A model generated the notes under the pieces. It did not search any database, was not told where the DNA came from, and saw nothing but the letters and a program-made list of their open reading frames with translations. Below are positions 1 to 9,118 of a DNA stretch of 64,000 nt, in pieces. How positions within the stretch are numbered: position 1 is the stretch's first letter; each line of letters begins with the position of its first letter. A program made the translations under genes and the position numbers. Source of the DNA: Pseudobdellovibrionaceae bacterium (GTDB taxonomy: Bacteria > Bdellovibrionota > Bdellovibrionia > Bdellovibrionales > Bdellovibrionaceae); contig JAHBUW010000004.1 of NCBI GenBank assembly GCA_019637875.1, positions 124,001-188,000 of the forward strand, given 5' to 3'.

Positions 1-1078
1 ACTGCTCGACGGCCTTGATCATTTCGTTCGGAATTCGGTCCGGAGCATAAAGGATCTTCACATCTTTGTGTTTCCAGGATTTTTTTAAGTCATCCATCGA
101 GTTTTTTTCTATCTTGGGAGGCGTAGAGGAGTATAGCTGTTGGCCTTTCGGATAGACTTGGTCGGCAGGCACCGCAAATTCGACGATTTCGGAGAGAGCT
201 TTAAAATCTCCGTGAGTTCTTAGATACTGAATAAGGGTACGGAATTCTCGGACATCTGATCGGCCCGCGAAACGTAGAGAAATTAGCCCATCTAGATGAC
301 GTCGCCAAGACGTAGGCATTGGCCCGAGAAGCGCAACGTCTTTTTTTAGTGCGAAGCTAGGGATGTTGATAACCATTGGCCATGTGTCATCTTTCAATGT
401 CCGGACAGAGACTGGCGCTTTTGGGCGACGGACAATTACCGTATCGAACATACGATCGTGCGTATGAATCCAGTAGGGATTTTTGGAAAGCTCAAGTTCT
501 GTTTCTGATGCGCGCTTTAGAACGTATGCGCCTGAGCTAACGTTCGTACTCATTTCTCCATTTTCAATTCGAGCCAATCCGTACATTGGCTCACAGAGCC
601 TTTCGAGAAACTTCATGGCCGATATATTTTCACGTAGCTCGAAGTTAACTTCGCGCGGCGATTGAGCCTTGATGCTAACATAGGAGTTGAAGACGCTTGG
701 AACGTCTTTCGAAATTGCTCGCTTGGCGTTGTTGAAGCTGGATACAACATCGGAGGCCGTGATGGCTTCTCCATTGGACCACTTAGTATCTCTAAGGCGG
801 AACGTTAAAGATCTTTTCGAGGCATCGATCTTCCATGATTCGGCGAGCGCGGCAGTAATTCCGCCGCGCCCGTCAAACTCCACGAGACCCGTACCGATAG
901 AATACGATATCTGAACGTCCGGCATAATCGCCACTCGCCGTAAATCGACGGGAAGGCGATAGTCCTGATAGATATGCAATGTACTTCTATCCACGTTCGA
1001 GCCTTTCGCCGCGAAAGAGAGGATCATCGCGGATGAAACCGTTTTCAAAAGCTTAAAAAGTTGTAGTCGGATTGACAT
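1..1078 (-). CDS. Family-5 extracellular solute-binding protein (OppA/DppA-like), 3' end outside window
   Basis: The frame is open for 359 codons from an ATG at 1078-1076 to the window edge, so the C-terminus is missing. Residues 1-25 are basic then hydrophobic, as in a secretion signal. Residues 91-108 (LTFRLRDTKWSNGEAITA, followed by a conserved-type SDVVSSF) are the usual entry of SBP_bac_5 proteins, which bind peptides or similar ligands in the periplasm. The first 26 bases overlap the end of the small secreted-protein gene, so the two are probably translationally coupled. No permease or ATPase gene accompanies it here. It may therefore act as a sensor or scavenging partner rather than as part of a complete transporter. 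The family call is good; the ligand is unknown. Confidence 0.8.
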   Translation of the reverse strand, partial: MSIRLQLFKLLKTVSSAMILSFAAKGSNVDRSTLHIYQDYRLPVDLRRVAIMPDVQISYSIGTGLVEFDGRGGITAALAESWKIDASKRSLTFRLRDTKWSNGEAITASDVVSSFNNAKRAISKDVPSVFNSYVSIKAQSPREVNFELRENISAMKFLERLCEPMYGLARIENGEMSTNVSSGAYVLKRASETELELSKNPYWIHTHDRMFDTVIVRRPKAPVSVRTLKDDTWPMVINIPSFALKKDVALLGPMPTSWRRHLDGLISLRFAGRSDVREFRTLIQYLRTHGDFKALSEIVEFAVPADQVYPKGQQLYSSTPPKIEKNSMDDLKKSWKHKDVKILYAPDRIPNEMIKAVEQ

Positions 1079-1409
1079 CACGAACGCCAGCGATCAGTAT
1101 CTGCAATCTTTGAACTTCTGACTTCATCAGCTCGAGTTCTTCGCGGGTTCCAAGAGATTCGATTTCTCCTTTTTCGTTCAGGCCAAAAATTTCGCCTTGT
1201 AGTCGAGATTTTTCTGCCGTGATCGCCAGCGAGCGCAGCAGATCTTCGACGTCTCGGCTTTCGCTTACGACTTTGCGAGGTGCATGGAATAGCGAGCTTT
1301 TAAGTAAACCTGTTTGGTCTCCTTGGATCTCGCTTTTGCTGAGAGCAGCATGTACGTTGGGACCTGTAGCCAGGATTCCCGTTAAGCTAAGAATCAGTTT
1401 TTTCAGCAT
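1053..1409 (-). CDS. Small secreted coiled-coil protein, unknown family
   Basis: 118 residues. A signal peptide is clear (MLKK, a hydrophobic core, cleavage after about residue 21 at NVHA). The mature part is charged and mainly helical. Residues 55-108 form heptad-like runs (ELELMKSEVQRLQILIAG) suggesting a short coiled coil. The protein ends in NPTTTF. I recognise no family. It sits 9 bases after the YcaO-domain gene and overlaps the next solute-binding gene by 26 bases, so all three belong to one operon. It could be a periplasmic adaptor. Serving as a substrate for the YcaO enzyme is possible but speculative, because a Sec signal peptide is atypical for a modified-peptide precursor. Confidence 0.65.
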   Translation of the reverse strand: MLKKLILSLTGILATGPNVHAALSKSEIQGDQTGLLKSSLFHAPRKVVSESRDVEDLLRSLAITAEKSRLQGEIFGLNEKGEIESLGTREELELMKSEVQRLQILIAGVRDVNPTTTF

Positions 1410-1418
1410 CTAGCCTCC

Positions 1419-2411
1419 TCAGGCGACAAAGTGCCTTTTTAGTTTGAGATTTGGACTTTCCTTGAATTCCAGTTTCAAAAAGTCAGGAGACGTGGCTTTC
1501 ACCACATGTAAATCCCCCTGCGCTAAGCGTTGGATATTGGCGGCTGCGATCACGGGCATCGGTAAACCGCGCCAAGATTTCTCGACTTTATGCCAGCTCC
1601 ATACTTCGCCATTCATCCACTCGATCTCTGTTGGGGAGGCTTTCCATAGGGCTGTGATGTGCTTGAATATCTCGTCCTTTGGATCTTTGGACTGGGCAAG
1701 CCAAGGTAAAAGCTCAGCGCACGCGACGCTACGAGAGAGTTCCGTATGGGATCGCATATAGGCTTTATGTGCAGTCTCTCCGGAACCGTGCGATATCAAT
1801 GGCCGCCCCGGTTGAACTAGCGACTCCGCGAGAAGGCTGATGGTCGAAGTTCGACCGGCAGTCCCCAACATGACTTGAGTTATTAGATAGCCATGTGCCA
1901 GCATCCGGTTCGTTTCGAACTGCTTAGGCAAAGTTTCTAGAGAGATATGAACAAATGGGATCTGACCGTAGTAATGTCTTAACACGGTATCACGTTCTGC
2001 TAACTCTTCCACGGCATTGCGAACTGCTTGATTTAAGCATGGGTGAGCGGCGAAGCCGTTCGAATTCGAGGATCCATGAAAGAACCGATTTAAGTGGAAC
2101 AAGCAGCGCTCATAGGCCTCGGAGATCGATTTCTGTATTGCGAGAGCTGGTACTTGCGCGCAGCCTGAACCCTTAAATATGCGTCCCATGCAGGTCAGTG
2201 AAGCTACAAATGTGTGGCCATGTTTGGGGTGGAATTTGGACCAGTCCTCTAGACGAGTCAGTCGGACATGAAAGCTCTCGCCCGAGCATACGTTTGTCTG
2301 CGCGCGCGACAACAGGCGTTCGAATACATTCCGATTTGCAACGCTTCCCCAGATTTCACCTAGCACGGTCCCCACCTTGAGTTTGCTGGATACTAAACGA
2401 AAGAGTGTCAA
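1419..2411 (-). CDS. YcaO-domain protein
   Basis: 330 residues from a TTG start (2411-2409), with AAGAG a few bases upstream; no ATG start was found nearby. The YcaO ATP-binding signature is readable in order: SISEAYER (95-102), SNGFAA (117-122), EELAERD (135-141) and a later TELSR (223-227). YcaO proteins use ATP to activate peptide amides, making azolines, thioamides or amidines in modified peptides, or assist RimO-type methylthiolation. The protein is shorter than most full cyclodehydratases, and no partner E1-like or dehydrogenase gene is visible. It lies between two periplasmic solute-binding-like genes and a small secreted protein, a context I do not know from described pathways. Domain call strong, reaction unknown. 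Confidence 0.8.
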   Translation of the reverse strand: MTLFRLVSSKLKVGTVLGEIWGSVANRNVFERLLSRAQTNVCSGESFHVRLTRLEDWSKFHPKHGHTFVASLTCMGRIFKGSGCAQVPALAIQKSISEAYERCLFHLNRFFHGSSNSNGFAAHPCLNQAVRNAVEELAERDTVLRHYYGQIPFVHISLETLPKQFETNRMLAHGYLITQVMLGTAGRTSTISLLAESLVQPGRPLISHGSGETAHKAYMRSHTELSRSVACAELLPWLAQSKDPKDEIFKHITALWKASPTEIEWMNGEVWSWHKVEKSWRGLPMPVIAAANIQRLAQGDLHVVKATSPDFLKLEFKESPNLKLKRHFVA

Positions 2412-2455
2412 ATCGCTCTTTCGAAGTACGGTAAAATCTGATTCCAGGTAGATAG

Positions 2456-2481
2456 CTGTTAACTGTTGATTTTGTTAACAG
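2456..2481. promoter_or_regulatory. Perfect 8-bp inverted repeat upstream of the YcaO gene
   Basis: CTGTTAAC (2456-2463), ten bases, then GTTAACAG (2474-2481). It ends 45 bases before the TTG start of the YcaO-domain gene. No T-run follows it on the minus strand, so it looks like an operator rather than a terminator. Function inferred from position only. Confidence 0.4.
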
Positions 2482-2507
2482 GCATATTTTTCTATGAGGG
2501 ATGGATG

Positions 2508-2524
2508 CGCTAATTCTGTTAGCG
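2508..2524. promoter_or_regulatory. 6-bp inverted repeat between solute-binding and YcaO genes
   Basis: CGCTAA (2508-2513), loop TTCTG, TTAGCG (2519-2524). It lies in the 160-base gap after the upstream solute-binding gene. It could be a weak transcript-end hairpin for that gene, but no T-run follows, so it may equally be a protein-binding site. Confidence 0.3.
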
Positions 2525-2571
2525 GAGTCCTACGTTTTTTGCGTGGGCGCATAAAACCTGATACTGCATTT

Positions 2572-4029
2572 TTAAAGCCCCAGCATGTCAATAAGTAGGA
2601 ACTCCTGCCGGAACTTCGTCTTCTTGATAGTCTTAGTGTCTTTCGCGTAGATCGTCGTTGGAAGAAGCAAGAGCGGAAAGGCGCATCCTGACTCCGAAAT
2701 GGAGTTGGTCACGGCGGTGAATGCGTCGATGCGTTTCTTCGGTTCATGGATTTTTCCTGCGTCTGCGAGGAGGCGCAAAAATGATTCCTGACCACAGTAG
2801 TGCATCCACCAGAAGCTGTTATCATGAAAGATAAGGGTCGCTAACCCGGGGTCCGGGATGATTGTCGAAGCTTCCGAAAACATGACGTCGACAGATTGAG
2901 GTTTCTTGAATGCTGAGTCGACAAATTCTACTTCCGGAAGCTTCAGTTCTTCGATCAATAGATCTTTCAAGTATGGAGGAAATAATTGGTTGTTGAATGG
3001 AAGGCGGAGCTTCATACCGGTTGGCCAGTTCGCGGCTTGGTTGGCGATTTCGGAAGTGCAGGCCGGGGACTTCAGCGCATCCGGAGAGAGATATTCGGGC
3101 GGCAATAGATGCGAGAGCGATGTAATCCCGGATCCGGACTTCTCGGCCCAACGGCCAAGGGCTTTCCAAATACGACATCCAATTGTTCTTCTCGTTTCGG
3201 GAGTTAGAGAGGACATAGTTTCAGTATTGAACCCACCGATTAAGAATCCAGTGCTGCCGATGTCGATTTTTTCGAGCTTTGTTTGGAATTCCCCTTCTTT
3301 GACCGTCGGACTCAGAAGTGCGTCAACTTCGTGTTTGGAAAGGAGCTCGCGGATGTGGTCAGCCTCGAAACAAACGTCGAATCTAACCTTCGCACCTGTG
3401 GCTTTGGATTCCGTCTGGACCATATCGCAATCGTTTTGCAGCTTTTGTGCTGAAACCACTCTGTAAGGCCCGTAAGAGATACCTTTCATGATCAGATCTT
3501 TGGGTGGGAAAATCGCGAAGGACGGGCGCGCAAGAGTCTGGAGAAGGAAAGGGTAAATCTGTTTGAAGCGAAGGCTGAATTTGATGCCAGTCTCGGTTTT
3601 CGAGACACTTTCCAATCGCATGTCGAGGGGGCGGATGATTTGGGCACCGATGGAGCTATCCTCCGTGCGAAGACGTTCAAAGATCATACTCGGCAAGGAC
3701 TCTAGACGGGGGGCCCCCTCCATAGAGAAGAGAGGATGACTGGCATTGATCTCGAAATCCACGCGGTTTGCTACGTGATCGATATGCCAACGTTCAATGA
3801 GGCCCGAGTACACCTGTCCGTCACGACCGGGTTCAATAAGGCTTTGTCCGAAGAGCTGATAGAACATCTGGTGATAGATGATAAAGGCGTCAGCCATACT
3901 CCAATCGAGGGGGCGCGAATGGATGAGTATGTGCTTACTCCCACGAACTGACCAAAGATTTGTCAGGGCGAAAATTCCTAAAACGGCGGCGAAAAGGCCG
4001 CCGAGCAGACCCCATCTTGAAAAGCGCAT
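2572..4029 (-). CDS. Membrane-anchored solute-binding-like protein
   Basis: 485 residues from the ATG at 4029-4027; a TTG 36 bases upstream (4065) would add 12 residues. Residues 5-25 form one membrane anchor or uncleaved signal (WGLLGGLFAAVLGIFAL). The rest resembles a divergent family-5 solute-binding protein: paired lobes, a SGLIERW segment where the family has its entry motif, and a C-terminal block with VDVMFSEA and PDPG. It is more diverged than the partial paralogue at the window start. It heads the minus-strand operon leading to the YcaO gene and is divergent from the histidine kinase at 4090, only about 60 bases away. A ligand-sensing role for that kinase is an inference. Confidence 0.65.
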   Translation of the reverse strand: MRFSRWGLLGGLFAAVLGIFALTNLWSVRGSKHILIHSRPLDWSMADAFIIYHQMFYQLFGQSLIEPGRDGQVYSGLIERWHIDHVANRVDFEINASHPLFSMEGAPRLESLPSMIFERLRTEDSSIGAQIIRPLDMRLESVSKTETGIKFSLRFKQIYPFLLQTLARPSFAIFPPKDLIMKGISYGPYRVVSAQKLQNDCDMVQTESKATGAKVRFDVCFEADHIRELLSKHEVDALLSPTVKEGEFQTKLEKIDIGSTGFLIGGFNTETMSSLTPETRRTIGCRIWKALGRWAEKSGSGITSLSHLLPPEYLSPDALKSPACTSEIANQAANWPTGMKLRLPFNNQLFPPYLKDLLIEELKLPEVEFVDSAFKKPQSVDVMFSEASTIIPDPGLATLIFHDNSFWWMHYCGQESFLRLLADAGKIHEPKKRIDAFTAVTNSISESGCAFPLLLLPTTIYAKDTKTIKKTKFRQEFLLIDMLGL

Positions 4030-4089
4030 ATCATGAAGATATATTGCGATGCATAATTCCGACAAGTTATTAAAAGCTTAGGGAAATCC

Positions 4090-5535
4090 ATGAGAGCCGA
4101 GCCGTCGACTGCAAATGAAAAATCCGAGCGCCGGGCTGCTCCCGAACTAGGGGCGATGATCGTGCGCCCGTTTCGCTCAGGCCTTAAGCTTCTAGGGTTT
4201 GTGATCGGGGTTATGCTGATCTTTGGCTACTTTACCCATTGGTTTTCGACTAACTCGAGCTATCGACAGTTTCTTCAAGGTTTTTACGTTCCTGAGATGC
4301 GGTCTCGGCTAGTCGATGGACGTTGGAGTGAAATTCAGCTGCTATGTGAAAGAATCGCAGAGATGTCTGAAATTGGACGAATCCAGTTCGTTCGTCCGGA
4401 CGTGATCGAAGCTCCGGTATGTGACGTCGTCGTACAGACGCCGCGGGTGTGGACACTAGTGAGTGAGATCGAAATTCCGTTCGGTTTTTCTAAGGCTTCT
4501 CCTGGGCAGCTTGGGACTCTCAAGGTTCAGCGCTTCGATCATCACAGTCTCCCGCTACTCGGTCTATTTTTAGCAATGGGATCATTGCTTTATGTCGTCA
4601 TCAGCCGGATGTGGATGCGTAAGGTGCAAACCACGATTTCGAATCACGTGCGCTCGGTGACGGACATCGTACGGCTTATCCGGGAGGACGACGGTGGATC
4701 GCCCTTGGCAGAGTCGGTTCGAAATGTCCCTGTCGAAAGCCGTGAGATGGAGGTGATCCAAACGTCGATTTCCAGTTATCTGGAGAAAACGGCACGGTTG
4801 CGGGACTTGGAAATCGAAAGCGCAAAAGAAACTGCGCAAAAAGAGATGCTCCGTCAATTGGCGCATGATCTACGCTCTCCACTGTCTTCATTGAAGTTGA
4901 TCTCCGGAACCAAAAAATTCTTTGCGGACATGAAGGCCCAGCAGGTCCTATCGGCGGCGGTAAATGCAATTCAGCGACAATTGGAGCAGGCGATGGCCGC
5001 GACACGTGAGACTCCACAAATGGCCTCCAAGACGACGACAATGTTTGATATTCGAAATGTCCTCCAGGAAATCGTTCAGATGAATCGTATGGCTCATCCG
5101 AACATTGAGTTCGCTCTTGAAATGGAGGAGGGCGCAGGGATTTGTGCCGTTGACGTTGTGGCTCTTCGGCGAGTGCTGCAAAATCTCGTTACGAACAGCC
5201 GAGAGAACCTGGAGTCCATCGTCGGGCGGACCGATCCTCGAGTTACAATCGGACTTCGTCTGTACGATGGAGACCTGATATTGTCGGTTCAGGACAATGG
5301 GTCTGGTCTGCCTCCGGAGGTGCGGTCGAGCTTCGGTCAGAAGGGGCTTAGTATTGGTAAAGAAAGTGGAAACGGCTTAGGTTTGGCCGCCGCTGTTGCA
5401 TTCATCCAAGCGTCCCATGGTGACATCGAGGTTTTGAGTTCGCCTTCGGAAGGCACTGTGATCCGTTTCAGAATTCCGGCGGAGATTCGGTTGAATGGGG
5501 TTTCTGAGCTGGCTTCTCGTCGCTACGAGCCTTAA
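4090..5535 (+). CDS. Membrane sensor histidine kinase, orphan
   Basis: 481 residues, ATG preceded by AGGGA. Two membrane segments (about 31-51 and 154-174) enclose a periplasmic domain of about 100 residues of no recognised type. A linker then leads to the phospho-acceptor helix with LAHDLRSPLSSLK (H259). The ATPase domain shows the N box (LVTNSREN, N369), the G1 box (DNGSG, 402-406) and the G2 box (GNGLGLA, 427-433). All catalytic motifs are present, so it should autophosphorylate. No response-regulator gene lies beside it. It is divergent from the solute-binding-like gene, and their shared short promoter region suggests joint control. The signal is unknown. Confidence 0.88.
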   Translation: MRAEPSTANEKSERRAAPELGAMIVRPFRSGLKLLGFVIGVMLIFGYFTHWFSTNSSYRQFLQGFYVPEMRSRLVDGRWSEIQLLCERIAEMSEIGRIQFVRPDVIEAPVCDVVVQTPRVWTLVSEIEIPFGFSKASPGQLGTLKVQRFDHHSLPLLGLFLAMGSLLYVVISRMWMRKVQTTISNHVRSVTDIVRLIREDDGGSPLAESVRNVPVESREMEVIQTSISSYLEKTARLRDLEIESAKETAQKEMLRQLAHDLRSPLSSLKLISGTKKFFADMKAQQVLSAAVNAIQRQLEQAMAATRETPQMASKTTTMFDIRNVLQEIVQMNRMAHPNIEFALEMEEGAGICAVDVVALRRVLQNLVTNSRENLESIVGRTDPRVTIGLRLYDGDLILSVQDNGSGLPPEVRSSFGQKGLSIGKESGNGLGLAAAVAFIQASHGDIEVLSSPSEGTVIRFRIPAEIRLNGVSELASRRYEP

Positions 5536-7102: not shown

Positions 7103-9118
7103 TCAGTTTTTCTTTCTATCGCGCGCGAGGTAGTCGGCTTCCGAGTAAGCGACCTTCCCGCGCGTAACGGAAGTGCGGATGAATTTTGGCCGCGACTTCA
7201 CCTCTTCGAGGATCTTCTTGATGTATTCGCCGAGGATGCTGATGGCAAGAATTTGCAATCCACCTAGTCCCAACGAAAGGACAACGATTGTCGTGAACCC
7301 CTTTGGGGCGGTGTTTCCCGAGAGGAACGTGTAGGCGACATAAAACACCCCGAGAGCGAAAGAGAGCGCCGTTACGGCCAAACCCAACGCCTGCATGAGG
7401 TCGAGGGGCTTCGAGCTAAACGAGAAGATCGCTTTCTTTGCCCACCAAATGTTCTTCGTGAAGTTATTTGTGGTCGTGCCGAACATACGCTCGGGACGCA
7501 CGTAGGGGACGCCGGTCTGTTTGAAGCCGACCCAAGCCCGAAGTCCGCGCAAGAACATGTCGCGCTCAGGGAGTTGCAGCATCTTGCCTGCGACCTTCCG
7601 GTCGATGAGGGAAAAGTCGCCGGCATCTTCCGGAATCTTCACGTCAGCCATCCGAGAGAACAGTCGGTAGAAGGCTTTGTAGAAGAACTGCATGTGTAGA
7701 GGTGCTTCGCGCTGCACGCGCACGCCGTAAACCACATCGTAACCCTCGAGCCAACGCTCGGCGAGTTTCGGGATCATTTCGGGTGGGTCCTGTAGATCCC
7801 CATCGAGCAGAACGACCGCATCGCCGGTTGAAAGCTCCATACCGCTCATGAATGCCGCTTGGGATCCGAAGTTCCGCGAATGCGAAATTCCGATCACCGA
7901 GATGTCGCGTGCACAGATTTTCGCGATCACTTCAGCATCGTTTTCGGGACTGTTGTCGTTGACGAAAATGATTTCGTAGTCGCAGCCGATACTCGTGATC
8001 GACTCCTTCAGACGTTCGTACATGATCGGAATGGCTTTTGAGTCGCGGTAACAAGCGATGACGGCCGAGATCTTGCGTTGCTGGGGTTGAGTTTTCGTAC
8101 CCTGCAAAAGACCGTGCGCGGCCGTCTCCCATTCGGCGGTCAGGCGAAGGCCGGTGGCAAGGTCCACTCGAGGGCGCCAGTTCATTTCGCTCGCAGCGAG
8201 TTCCCCGTTGCCGTACCATTCCGTGAGATCCCAGCGGCGGGGAGGCATGGTCCCGAAGTTCGGCTCACCGGGAATTTTGAAAACCTCACGAGCGGTTTGT
8301 GCGAGTGACGCAAGCGTGACTTTGCGGCTTGCGCAAATGTTGACGGATTCACCACGACGGTTGCGGCAAATCGTCGAGGCGGCACGAACGAAGGCCATCA
8401 AACAGTCGTCGACGTAAACGAAATCTCGCGAGATATCCGGATTCGTCAGAGACGGGTATTTGCCTTCAAGTGCGCGGTTGACGAGCGTCGGGATAAGCCG
8501 ATTGCGGTCCTCCCAGGGGCCGTAAATCGAATACAGACGTAGATTGGCGCAGGGGAAGTCGTGCTTCAGGCCGAAGAACTTGATCATGAGCGCGGCGGCG
8601 CCCTTCGAGACGGCGTAATGACTATTGGGCAGCAGGGGGGCGTTCTCTTTCGGGCCCGCGGCGTTCATGCCGTACTCTGAAGATGACCCGGCCTGTACGA
8701 GAGCGTAGCAGCCCGTCTCTTGCAGGACTTCGATCAGATTCAGAAGTCCGATGTAGTTCACGTCGTGAATCTTCTGACTATCGCTTTGTCGCTCGTAAGC
8801 GCCATAAGCGGACAGGTTGAAGACCACTTGTGGACGGAACCGCTCCACGATACCGCGGATGTTGTCTTTGTCGGTGATGTCGCCGACGGTCAGATGTTTC
8901 GCCAGATCGATGCCTTCAGGAGCCGCCTGCAAACGCCATCCCAGATCTTTCGTGCGCACGAGAGCGAATACGTCTTGTCGGTGCTGTAGAAGTTGAAACA
9001 GAACGTGTGCGCCGATGAATCCGCCCGCGCCGACTACGAGGATCGGTCCGGGAAGCTTTTTGATTTCGGCGATGTCCTCCGCTGTCAGGGTCGACCGAAA
9101 CAGAGCTTCGGTGTTCAT
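7103..9118 (-). CDS. Fusion: NAD-dependent sugar epimerase/dehydratase + family 2 glycosyltransferase with membrane tail
   Basis: 671 residues in one uninterrupted frame. Residues about 20-330 are an extended SDR: nucleotide-binding GAGGFIG (30-36) and catalytic YAVSK (168-172) with SSSEYG upstream. Residues about 348-560 are a GT2 domain of dolichol-phosphate-mannose-synthase/GtrB type (AVIACYRDS, FVNDNSP, LLDGDLQDP at 437-445). Two membrane helices follow (about 575-600 and 610-640), as in lipid-phosphate glycosyltransferases. The two activities are normally separate proteins. Fusing them suggests that the nucleotide sugar made by the first half is passed to the second, which would place it on a lipid carrier. 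The start overlaps the transketolase C-terminal gene by ATGA-type coupling. Confidence 0.88.
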   Translation of the reverse strand: MNTEALFRSTLTAEDIAEIKKLPGPILVVGAGGFIGAHVLFQLLQHRQDVFALVRTKDLGWRLQAAPEGIDLAKHLTVGDITDKDNIRGIVERFRPQVVFNLSAYGAYERQSDSQKIHDVNYIGLLNLIEVLQETGCYALVQAGSSSEYGMNAAGPKENAPLLPNSHYAVSKGAAALMIKFFGLKHDFPCANLRLYSIYGPWEDRNRLIPTLVNRALEGKYPSLTNPDISRDFVYVDDCLMAFVRAASTICRNRRGESVNICASRKVTLASLAQTAREVFKIPGEPNFGTMPPRRWDLTEWYGNGELAASEMNWRPRVDLATGLRLTAEWETAAHGLLQGTKTQPQQRKISAVIACYRDSKAIPIMYERLKESITSIGCDYEIIFVNDNSPENDAEVIAKICARDISVIGISHSRNFGSQAAFMSGMELSTGDAVVLLDGDLQDPPEMIPKLAERWLEGYDVVYGVRVQREAPLHMQFFYKAFYRLFSRMADVKIPEDAGDFSLIDRKVAGKMLQLPERDMFLRGLRAWVGFKQTGVPYVRPERMFGTTTNNFTKNIWWAKKAIFSFSSKPLDLMQALGLAVTALSFALGVFYVAYTFLSGNTAPKGFTTIVVLSLGLGGLQILAISILGEYIKKILEEVKSRPKFIRTSVTRGKVAYSEADYLARDRKKN

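Follow-up and report, generated by a model that had tools for sequence, protein, structure and literature searches.

A stretch of 64,000 nt of contig JAHBUW010000004.1 (positions 124,001-188,000), from a bacterium of the Pseudobdellovibrionaceae, was analysed and is referred to here as the window, with negative positions for the DNA left of its position 1. At its left end lies a minus-strand operon that starts with the gene of a standalone YcaO enzyme and that we read, with a probability of about 0.7, as a self-contained peptide signalling system. The order of its genes is ycaO, a small secreted peptide, a periplasmic solute-binding protein (SBP), a histidine kinase (HK) and a nitroreductase. 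The first gene (1419..2411) encodes a YcaO protein of 330 aa (Pfam YcaO 39.5 bits, cut-off 25.7). It is followed by the gene of a putative peptide precursor (1053..1409; 118 aa), with a signal-peptide-like N-terminus (MLKKLILSLTGILATGPNVHA), a leader and a proposed C-terminal core, RDVNPTTTF (1056..1082), and by that of SBP2, a family-5 solute/peptide-binding protein that would be the receptor of the operon (1..1081, continuing to -415, thus 1081..-415; 498 aa; Pfam SBP_bac_5 76 bits). Beyond the window, the operon continues with HK2 (-412..-1674), which has the H-box AHDLRSPM and two transmembrane segments, and ends with the nitroreductase-family protein (-1671..-2438; PF00881 28.4 bits, cut-off 23.5). 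The original prediction had read five genes in this part of the window, the first three of the operon and a divergent SBP/HK pair described below; all of them are where it had placed them, and Pfam confirmed the SBP_bac_5, YcaO and kinase ATPase domains.

When the window YcaO was used as the sole query, matches were obtained in 15 of 60 relatives. A profile of 13 YcaOs (A1), employed for the order- and phylum-wide searches, detected relatives in 50 of the 141 genomes of the order and in 94 of the 369 genomes of the phylum Bdellovibrionota, the records carrying the locus being named Pseudobdellovibrionaceae, Bdellovibrio sp., Bdellovibrionaceae and Bdellovibrionia. The neighbourhoods of 96 YcaO genes were read with profiles for YcaO, SBP, HK, regulator and TraC/VirB4, revealing an adjacent SBP gene in 84, SBP plus HK in 79 and a response regulator (RR) in 48. 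This regulator is of the NtrC type, with Pfam matches to Response_reg, Sigma54_activat and AAA lid and, in most cases, HTH_8. Two gene orders were distinguished, 'Y-S' (YcaO > precursor > SBP > HK > RR) and 'S-Y' (RR > precursor > SBP > YcaO > HK). The window copy is of the Y-S type, both by its gene order and by the position of its YcaO in the tree, where it joins the Y-S clade (support 0.96). The same order of genes being present in dozens of genomes, the arrangement is not due to chance, and the conservation by which the original prediction was to be checked is found at the 79 loci with YcaO, SBP and HK.

The YcaO genes L174-L176, which have no SBP, were counted as non-members. The data do not show a spread beyond the Bdellovibrionota, as the one match of this kind labelled outside the phylum (L137, from a Proteobacteria metagenome-assembled genome, MAG) has a YcaO and neither SBP nor HK. 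Two operons (L131 and L134) belong to the public MAG CALQIT02, labelled Streptomyces griseus, which is probably a mislabelled Bdellovibrionales record. Nothing on this gene combination was found in the literature searched, which was open-access only and therefore says little about novelty.

An open reading frame (ORF) with a hydrophobic N-terminus, roughly 45-170 codons long, stands directly upstream of the SBP gene, often overlapping it, in 75 of the 84 SBP-bearing loci. The rule used to select these precursor ORFs required the hydrophobic N-terminus and made no selection on the C-terminus. Within the last 18 residues Cys was enriched 4.9-fold, Gly, Thr, Pro and Ser were enriched also, and Leu was depleted. 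Cys was present there in 51 of 72 precursors, compared to 23.5 expected from shuffles (maximum 36 in 5000), and the pattern [STGP]x0-2C in 47 of the 72, compared to 13.7 (maximum 25). When the precursors were compared with the remaining small ORFs of secreted type at these loci, the pattern was found in 49 of 76 and 7 of 57, respectively (p 6e-10). Examples of these cores are HPTTICVGASGITK, KPSSICVGANGGITK, HPTTICVG, EPSCW, QPTCW, EPSCVSM, GNPTCWTK, TQPTCWGH and SRGGTICF, and some families have cores with Ser/Thr only (APSSIGMS, QPSSIGG, QPTTISV). The window precursor can be aligned with those of the Y-S loci through the block GLNEKGE, identical in L072, and its core RDVNPTTTF with QDVTQPTCWGH, in such a way that NPTT falls against the QPTC, EPSC or QPSS of the relatives.

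A short precursor ORF adjacent to the enzyme gene, with a variable core bearing Cys/Ser/Thr, is what is found in clusters for ribosomally synthesised and post-translationally modified peptides (RiPPs). From these sequence features, the small protein is likely a RiPP precursor, its short core lying C-terminal to a signal peptide and a leader. The original prediction had called it a small secreted coiled-coil protein; the gene was correctly read, but the coiled-coil label is better replaced by that of a peptide precursor. The precursors of L027 (10908-11198) and L161 carry a GGATC site in the N-terminal half of the mature region and a helical region after it, reversing the usual leader-core order. 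Because the site has moved to the N-terminal half in these two, what is kept appears to be the Cys/Ser/Thr site and not its C-terminal location. At one locus (L035:11814-12592), two precursors stand in tandem, their leaders related and their C-terminal ends different (SSGKCEGI and TTGRCETI), as if one operon made two signals.

For sigma-54 promoters, the consensus TGGCACG-N4-TTGCW was scored between 150 bp upstream and 40 bp downstream of the gene start, for all genes alike, with a threshold of 14.5 that was taken from a first look at the same loci. Sites were detected before the first gene in 11 of the 19 Y-S operons (15 of which have a linked regulator) and in 12 of the 32 S-Y operons with a regulator, compared to none of the 28 S-Y operons without it and to a background of 1.8% among 495 other genes of the same loci (p 7.5e-13 and 5.6e-11). 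Combined, 23 of the 51 regulator-bearing or YcaO-first operons have a sigma-54 promoter. Sites such as TGGCACCTTGTTTGCT precede the start codon by about 40-65 bp. The occurrence of the promoter broadly follows that of the activator, as autoinduction would predict, and these promoters in the relatives suggest that the regulator would activate its own operon. A response regulator was sought for the window operon too: it is linked in the 48 relatives mentioned above, but none was found linked to the operon left of the window, and 11 strong NtrC-like matches elsewhere in the window genome could not be assigned to it.

The module is also linked to conjugation. Across the genomes of the order, a TraC_F_IV match stands no more than 20 kb from 30 of 83 YcaO sites, compared to 2.5 expected from random placement in a 3.3-Mb genome; conversely, a YcaO module is near 30 of the 111 TraC sites, or roughly one in four of the TraC-bearing conjugative systems detected there. 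A TraC/VirB4 gene was present in the stretch read at 28 of the 96 loci, with the regulator in 27 of these, the remaining locus ending at a contig end. At S-Y loci, TraC is usually encoded on the strand of the HK gene, with its start 2-5 kb downstream of it; the transfer genes of Y-S loci run divergently from ycaO. One such element (G030) has a serine recombinase, a TraG/TraD coupling protein, CagX and a TraL-like protein beside the TraC-like gene. Linkage to a type IV secretion system (T4SS) appears in several separate YcaO clades of the tree, and from it the output of the element-borne copies would be conjugation. A sigma-54 promoter before the T4SS operon was considered as a general rule and found to be unsupported, with weak sites at a similar place after the HK in only some loci; because of this, direct control of transfer is a step that we infer.

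In the T4SS operons that follow the HK, such as those of L080 and L095, the first gene often encodes a small zinc-ribbon protein that is conserved (KCPKCGSKEILTLGMDQMCCDCDW), and several loci have a weak sigma-54-like site roughly 45-85 bp before this gene. Downstream of one YcaO-bearing conjugative element (L190:9921-11363), a caspase-domain protein is followed by a TIR-like protein, possibly as a defence pair.

The AlphaFold model of SBP2 (predicted local distance difference test, pLDDT, 86) had its best PDB matches in OppA, MppA, NikA and AapF, one of the matched AapF entries being a complex with a signalling molecule. The profile of the SBP family matched PrgZ, the enterococcal pheromone receptor (4faj, E 8e-17). 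Neither a permease nor a transporter ATPase was found in the operon or its immediate flanks, and none of the PF00528 permease matches listed for the window genome is on this contig; an ordinary Opp/Dpp importer was rejected on these grounds. Because the transporter is missing and the adjacency of SBP and HK is conserved, the SBP is better explained as a receptor than as an importer. There is a precedent for an SBP that switches a histidine kinase in CBP/ChiS (PMC7564644), and from the fold, the adjacency and this precedent the SBP would capture the peptide and hand it over to the HK. Modified-peptide sensing or uptake with SBPs as receptors had been the original prediction, which these data support, with sensing favoured over uptake; the ordinary Opp/Dpp transporter left of position 1 that would have spoken against it is not there, its place being occupied by HK2 and the nitroreductase.

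Regarding the enzyme, the glutamates of the ExxER and ExxERD ATP/Mg motifs, aligned to MJ1094 and TruD, are invariant in 28 aligned members, thus corroborating the readable ATP-binding motifs that had been claimed for this YcaO and providing another feature of RiPP clusters, a YcaO with ATP/Mg motifs. Its AlphaFold model (pLDDT 83) matched MkYcaO, MjYcaO, LynD and McbD. It would be a standalone YcaO with intact ATP motifs, no partner protein having been seen, and of uncertain chemistry. As the cores carry Cys/Ser/Thr, azoline formation in the core is favoured as a first guess, with thioamide or amidine as alternatives; that the precursor is what the YcaO modifies is suggested by the adjacency of their genes and the conservation of the core. 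The nitroreductases are the enzyme superfamily to which azoline oxidases belong. The protein of the window operon matches PF00881, but no SagB-type NCBIfam family, and a nitroreductase as a regular part of the system was rejected, since it occurs in the window operon and in no other operon of the set.

On either side of the operon lies another SBP/HK pair, each arranged divergently. On the right, SBP1 (2572..4065, minus strand; 497 aa, with a possible start at 4029) is a putative second receptor and has one N-terminal transmembrane segment (residues 19-37); HK1, divergent from it (4090..5535, plus strand; 481 aa; HATPase_c 65 bits), has two transmembrane segments, the H-box AHDLRSPL at residue 258 and a HisKA trace beside the HATPase_c match (Pfam). 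On the left, HK3 (-5307..-4102) and SBP3 (-4077..-2467) form the mirror image of this pair. SBP1 and SBP3 gave no Pfam match. Against the family SBP profile built without them, E values of 8e-10 and 3e-11 were obtained, in agreement with the membrane-anchored second SBP-like protein described originally, and the three kinases matched the family HK profile, also built without them, with E values from 4e-42 (HK1) to 2e-60. A close relative of SBP3 was found in none of the 65 other genomes of the family. These extra pairs, which have no YcaO, may listen for other peptides. The side left of position 1, unseen in the original prediction, thus extends the operon into HK2 and the nitroreductase and contains a third SBP/HK pair (-5307..-2467).

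On the basis of the gene order and its conservation, the features of the precursors, the sigma-54 sites, the T4SS linkage and the folds, a mechanism can be proposed in which a precursor composed of a Sec-type signal peptide, a leader and, at its C-terminus, a short core would be made, and the YcaO, depending on ATP, would modify backbone amides beside Cys/Ser/Thr in the core, probably to azolines; in the window species alone, the nitroreductase could oxidise these to azoles. The peptide would leave through Sec, be trimmed and be captured in the periplasm by the family-5 SBP, which, as a receptor rather than an importer, would present it to the membrane HK. In the relatives, the HK would phosphorylate the NtrC-type regulator encoded next to it, which would in turn activate the sigma-54 promoter of the same operon, closing an autoinduction loop. 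In many copies, the signal would probably help to control the adjoining conjugative T4SS operon. The precursor, the sigma-54 feedback and the conjugation link are additions to the original prediction. A wider proposal, to which we give somewhat less than even odds, is that in predatory bacteria throughout the phylum the conjugation of integrative elements is gated by a class of Gram-negative peptide pheromones, which a standalone YcaO would make, Sec would export and a dedicated circuit of SBP, HK and sigma-54 would sense, the extra SBP/HK pairs listening for other pheromones.

Several results weigh against the peptide-signal reading. The Pfam score of the window YcaO is modest, and its only NCBIfam match, TIGR03604 (the SagD-type cyclodehydratase of thiazole/oxazole-modified microcins, TOMMs), reached 36.9 bits for a cut-off of 219. 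No E1-like/ThiF partner was detected by Pfam among the operon genes and flanks scanned, and TfuA was not seen either. A C-terminal PxPxP motif has been associated with azoline-forming YcaOs (PMC12338566), and the window YcaO ends in RHFVA without it; among the 96 YcaOs, the exact motif was present in 10, and 47 have PH/RH-type ends. The Sec signal peptide was assigned by hydropathy only, the same feature used in picking the ORFs, so that it is partly selected, and about one third of the cores, including that of the window, have no Cys. In the region upstream of the window ycaO (2412..2571) the best sigma-54 score was 10.2, below the threshold, and no activator is linked to it; even in the relatives, few sites precede the T4SS operon itself. 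The window genome gave no TraC match, and so has no linked conjugative T4SS. The window copy is a divergent chromosomal one, with precursor, YcaO and HK, and without regulator, sigma-54 site or conjugation genes. Signalling between cells, for which the peptide would have to cross the outer membrane, would be the least certain step; the peptide could also act within one periplasm.

RiPPs with HK/RR autoinduction follow the logic of nisin, and the sigma-54 feedback would fit an autoregulated antimicrobial of this kind, directed at killing competitors, with the induction of its own operon through the HK as a mere side effect. We consider this unlikely, as the conserved core (precursor, YcaO, SBP, HK and RR) has no exporter, immunity or protease gene and the chromosomal versions retain only precursor, YcaO and receptors. 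It is just as improbable that the small protein serves the SBP/HK sensor as a periplasmic accessory and stays unmodified, the YcaO modifying something else. The lack of a partner protein, the degenerate C-terminus of the YcaO and the several cores without Cys would agree with it, but the precursor gene adjoins those of SBP and YcaO in the 75 loci counted above, and its conserved feature, maintained even in L027 and L161, is a site of Cys/Ser/Thr, the residues used by YcaO cyclodehydratases.

A little less probable still is a periplasmic metal binder similar to bufferins or methanobactin, with the SBP/HK pair sensing the metal complex. Sec-exported, Cys-modified copper-binding RiPPs do exist (bufferins, PMC12452194), and the SBP fold also matches NikA; nevertheless, no multinuclear non-haem iron-dependent oxidative (MNIO) enzyme was matched by Pfam among the operon genes and no metal importer was seen in the operon, the cores usually have one Cys or none (none in the window), and both the conjugation linkage and the sigma-54 feedback would be left unexplained. 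Finally, a decayed Opp/Dpp uptake remnant, in which the SBPs were kept and the YcaO is a chance neighbour, has in its favour that the SBP family is the Opp/Dpp one, but with no permease or ATPase in the operon and the same YcaO/SBP/HK set across a phylum, it is contradicted by the conserved gene order and very improbable.

If the peptide-signal reading is true, it would mean a Gram-negative peptide signalling assembled from parts not known to work together: an enzyme of the YcaO superfamily of RiPP enzymes serving communication, a YcaO substrate exported by Sec and an Opp-type SBP as co-receptor of a kinase. It would also extend the control of conjugation by peptide pheromones outside the Gram-positives, and the precursor cores would provide a list of signal sequences that can be tested.

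Apart from this system, two other regions drew attention. At -13073..-8043 (L002:6927-11957) lies a possible split borosin-like peptide cluster, a row with a short ORF (...LLKLLAEIEAQESSQDQDAQ), a methyltransferase of the tetrapyrrole-methylase fold (37.7 bits), two proteins with HExxH-like motifs, an ABC-type ATPase/membrane protein and a 2-oxoglutarate-Fe(II) oxygenase. At 7103-9118 of the window, in an apparent polysaccharide cluster, a 671-aa ORF fuses, as judged by eye, parts similar to an NAD-dependent epimerase and to a GT2 glycosyltransferase.

When compared with known systems, the operon would share with pCF10/PrgZ a family-5 SBP as peptide pheromone receptor, a small peptide whose gene encodes a signal peptide, and a link to conjugation, the linked conjugative T4SS being absent from the window genome and present within 20 kb at the 30 loci of the order. 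It differs in the HK and sigma-54 regulator, the modifying enzyme and the Gram-negative host; PrgZ, from a Gram-positive, feeds Opp import towards the cytoplasmic PrgX, without YcaO or HK. With TOMM clusters (SagBCD, McbBCD and the cyanobactin heterocyclases) it has in common the YcaO ATPase and the Cys/Ser/Thr core, and the window operon also encodes a nitroreductase-family enzyme, but no E1-like/ThiF partner was seen, PxPxP is missing from the window YcaO, the precursor has a putative Sec signal peptide and there are receptors instead of toxin export. Such signal peptides are rare on RiPP precursors and known mainly from MNIO RiPPs (PMC12452194); bufferins and other Sec-exported MNIO RiPPs would resemble the present precursors in this feature and differ in their MNIO enzyme, DUF2063-type partner, copper binding and lack of a sensor operon (PMC12452194). 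In Vibrio, the sensor histidine kinase ChiS is under the control of CBP, a periplasmic binding protein from the same SBP family, although the ligand is an environmental chitin disaccharide and not a self-made peptide (PMC7564644).

As in Agr, ComQXPA and nisin, a single operon, here putatively autoinducing, would combine a precursor with the enzyme dedicated to its modification, an HK and an RR, this combination being complete in the relatives (48 loci with RR) and complete but for the RR in the window operon. In those systems, the enzymes are AgrB, ComQ or Lan proteins, the kinase binds the peptide directly, and there is neither SBP nor sigma-54 activator. Thus, while the system coincides fully with none of Agr, ComQXPA and nisin and departs from TOMM clusters in several features, it resembles a modified-peptide two-component autoinduction with a PrgZ-like receptor.

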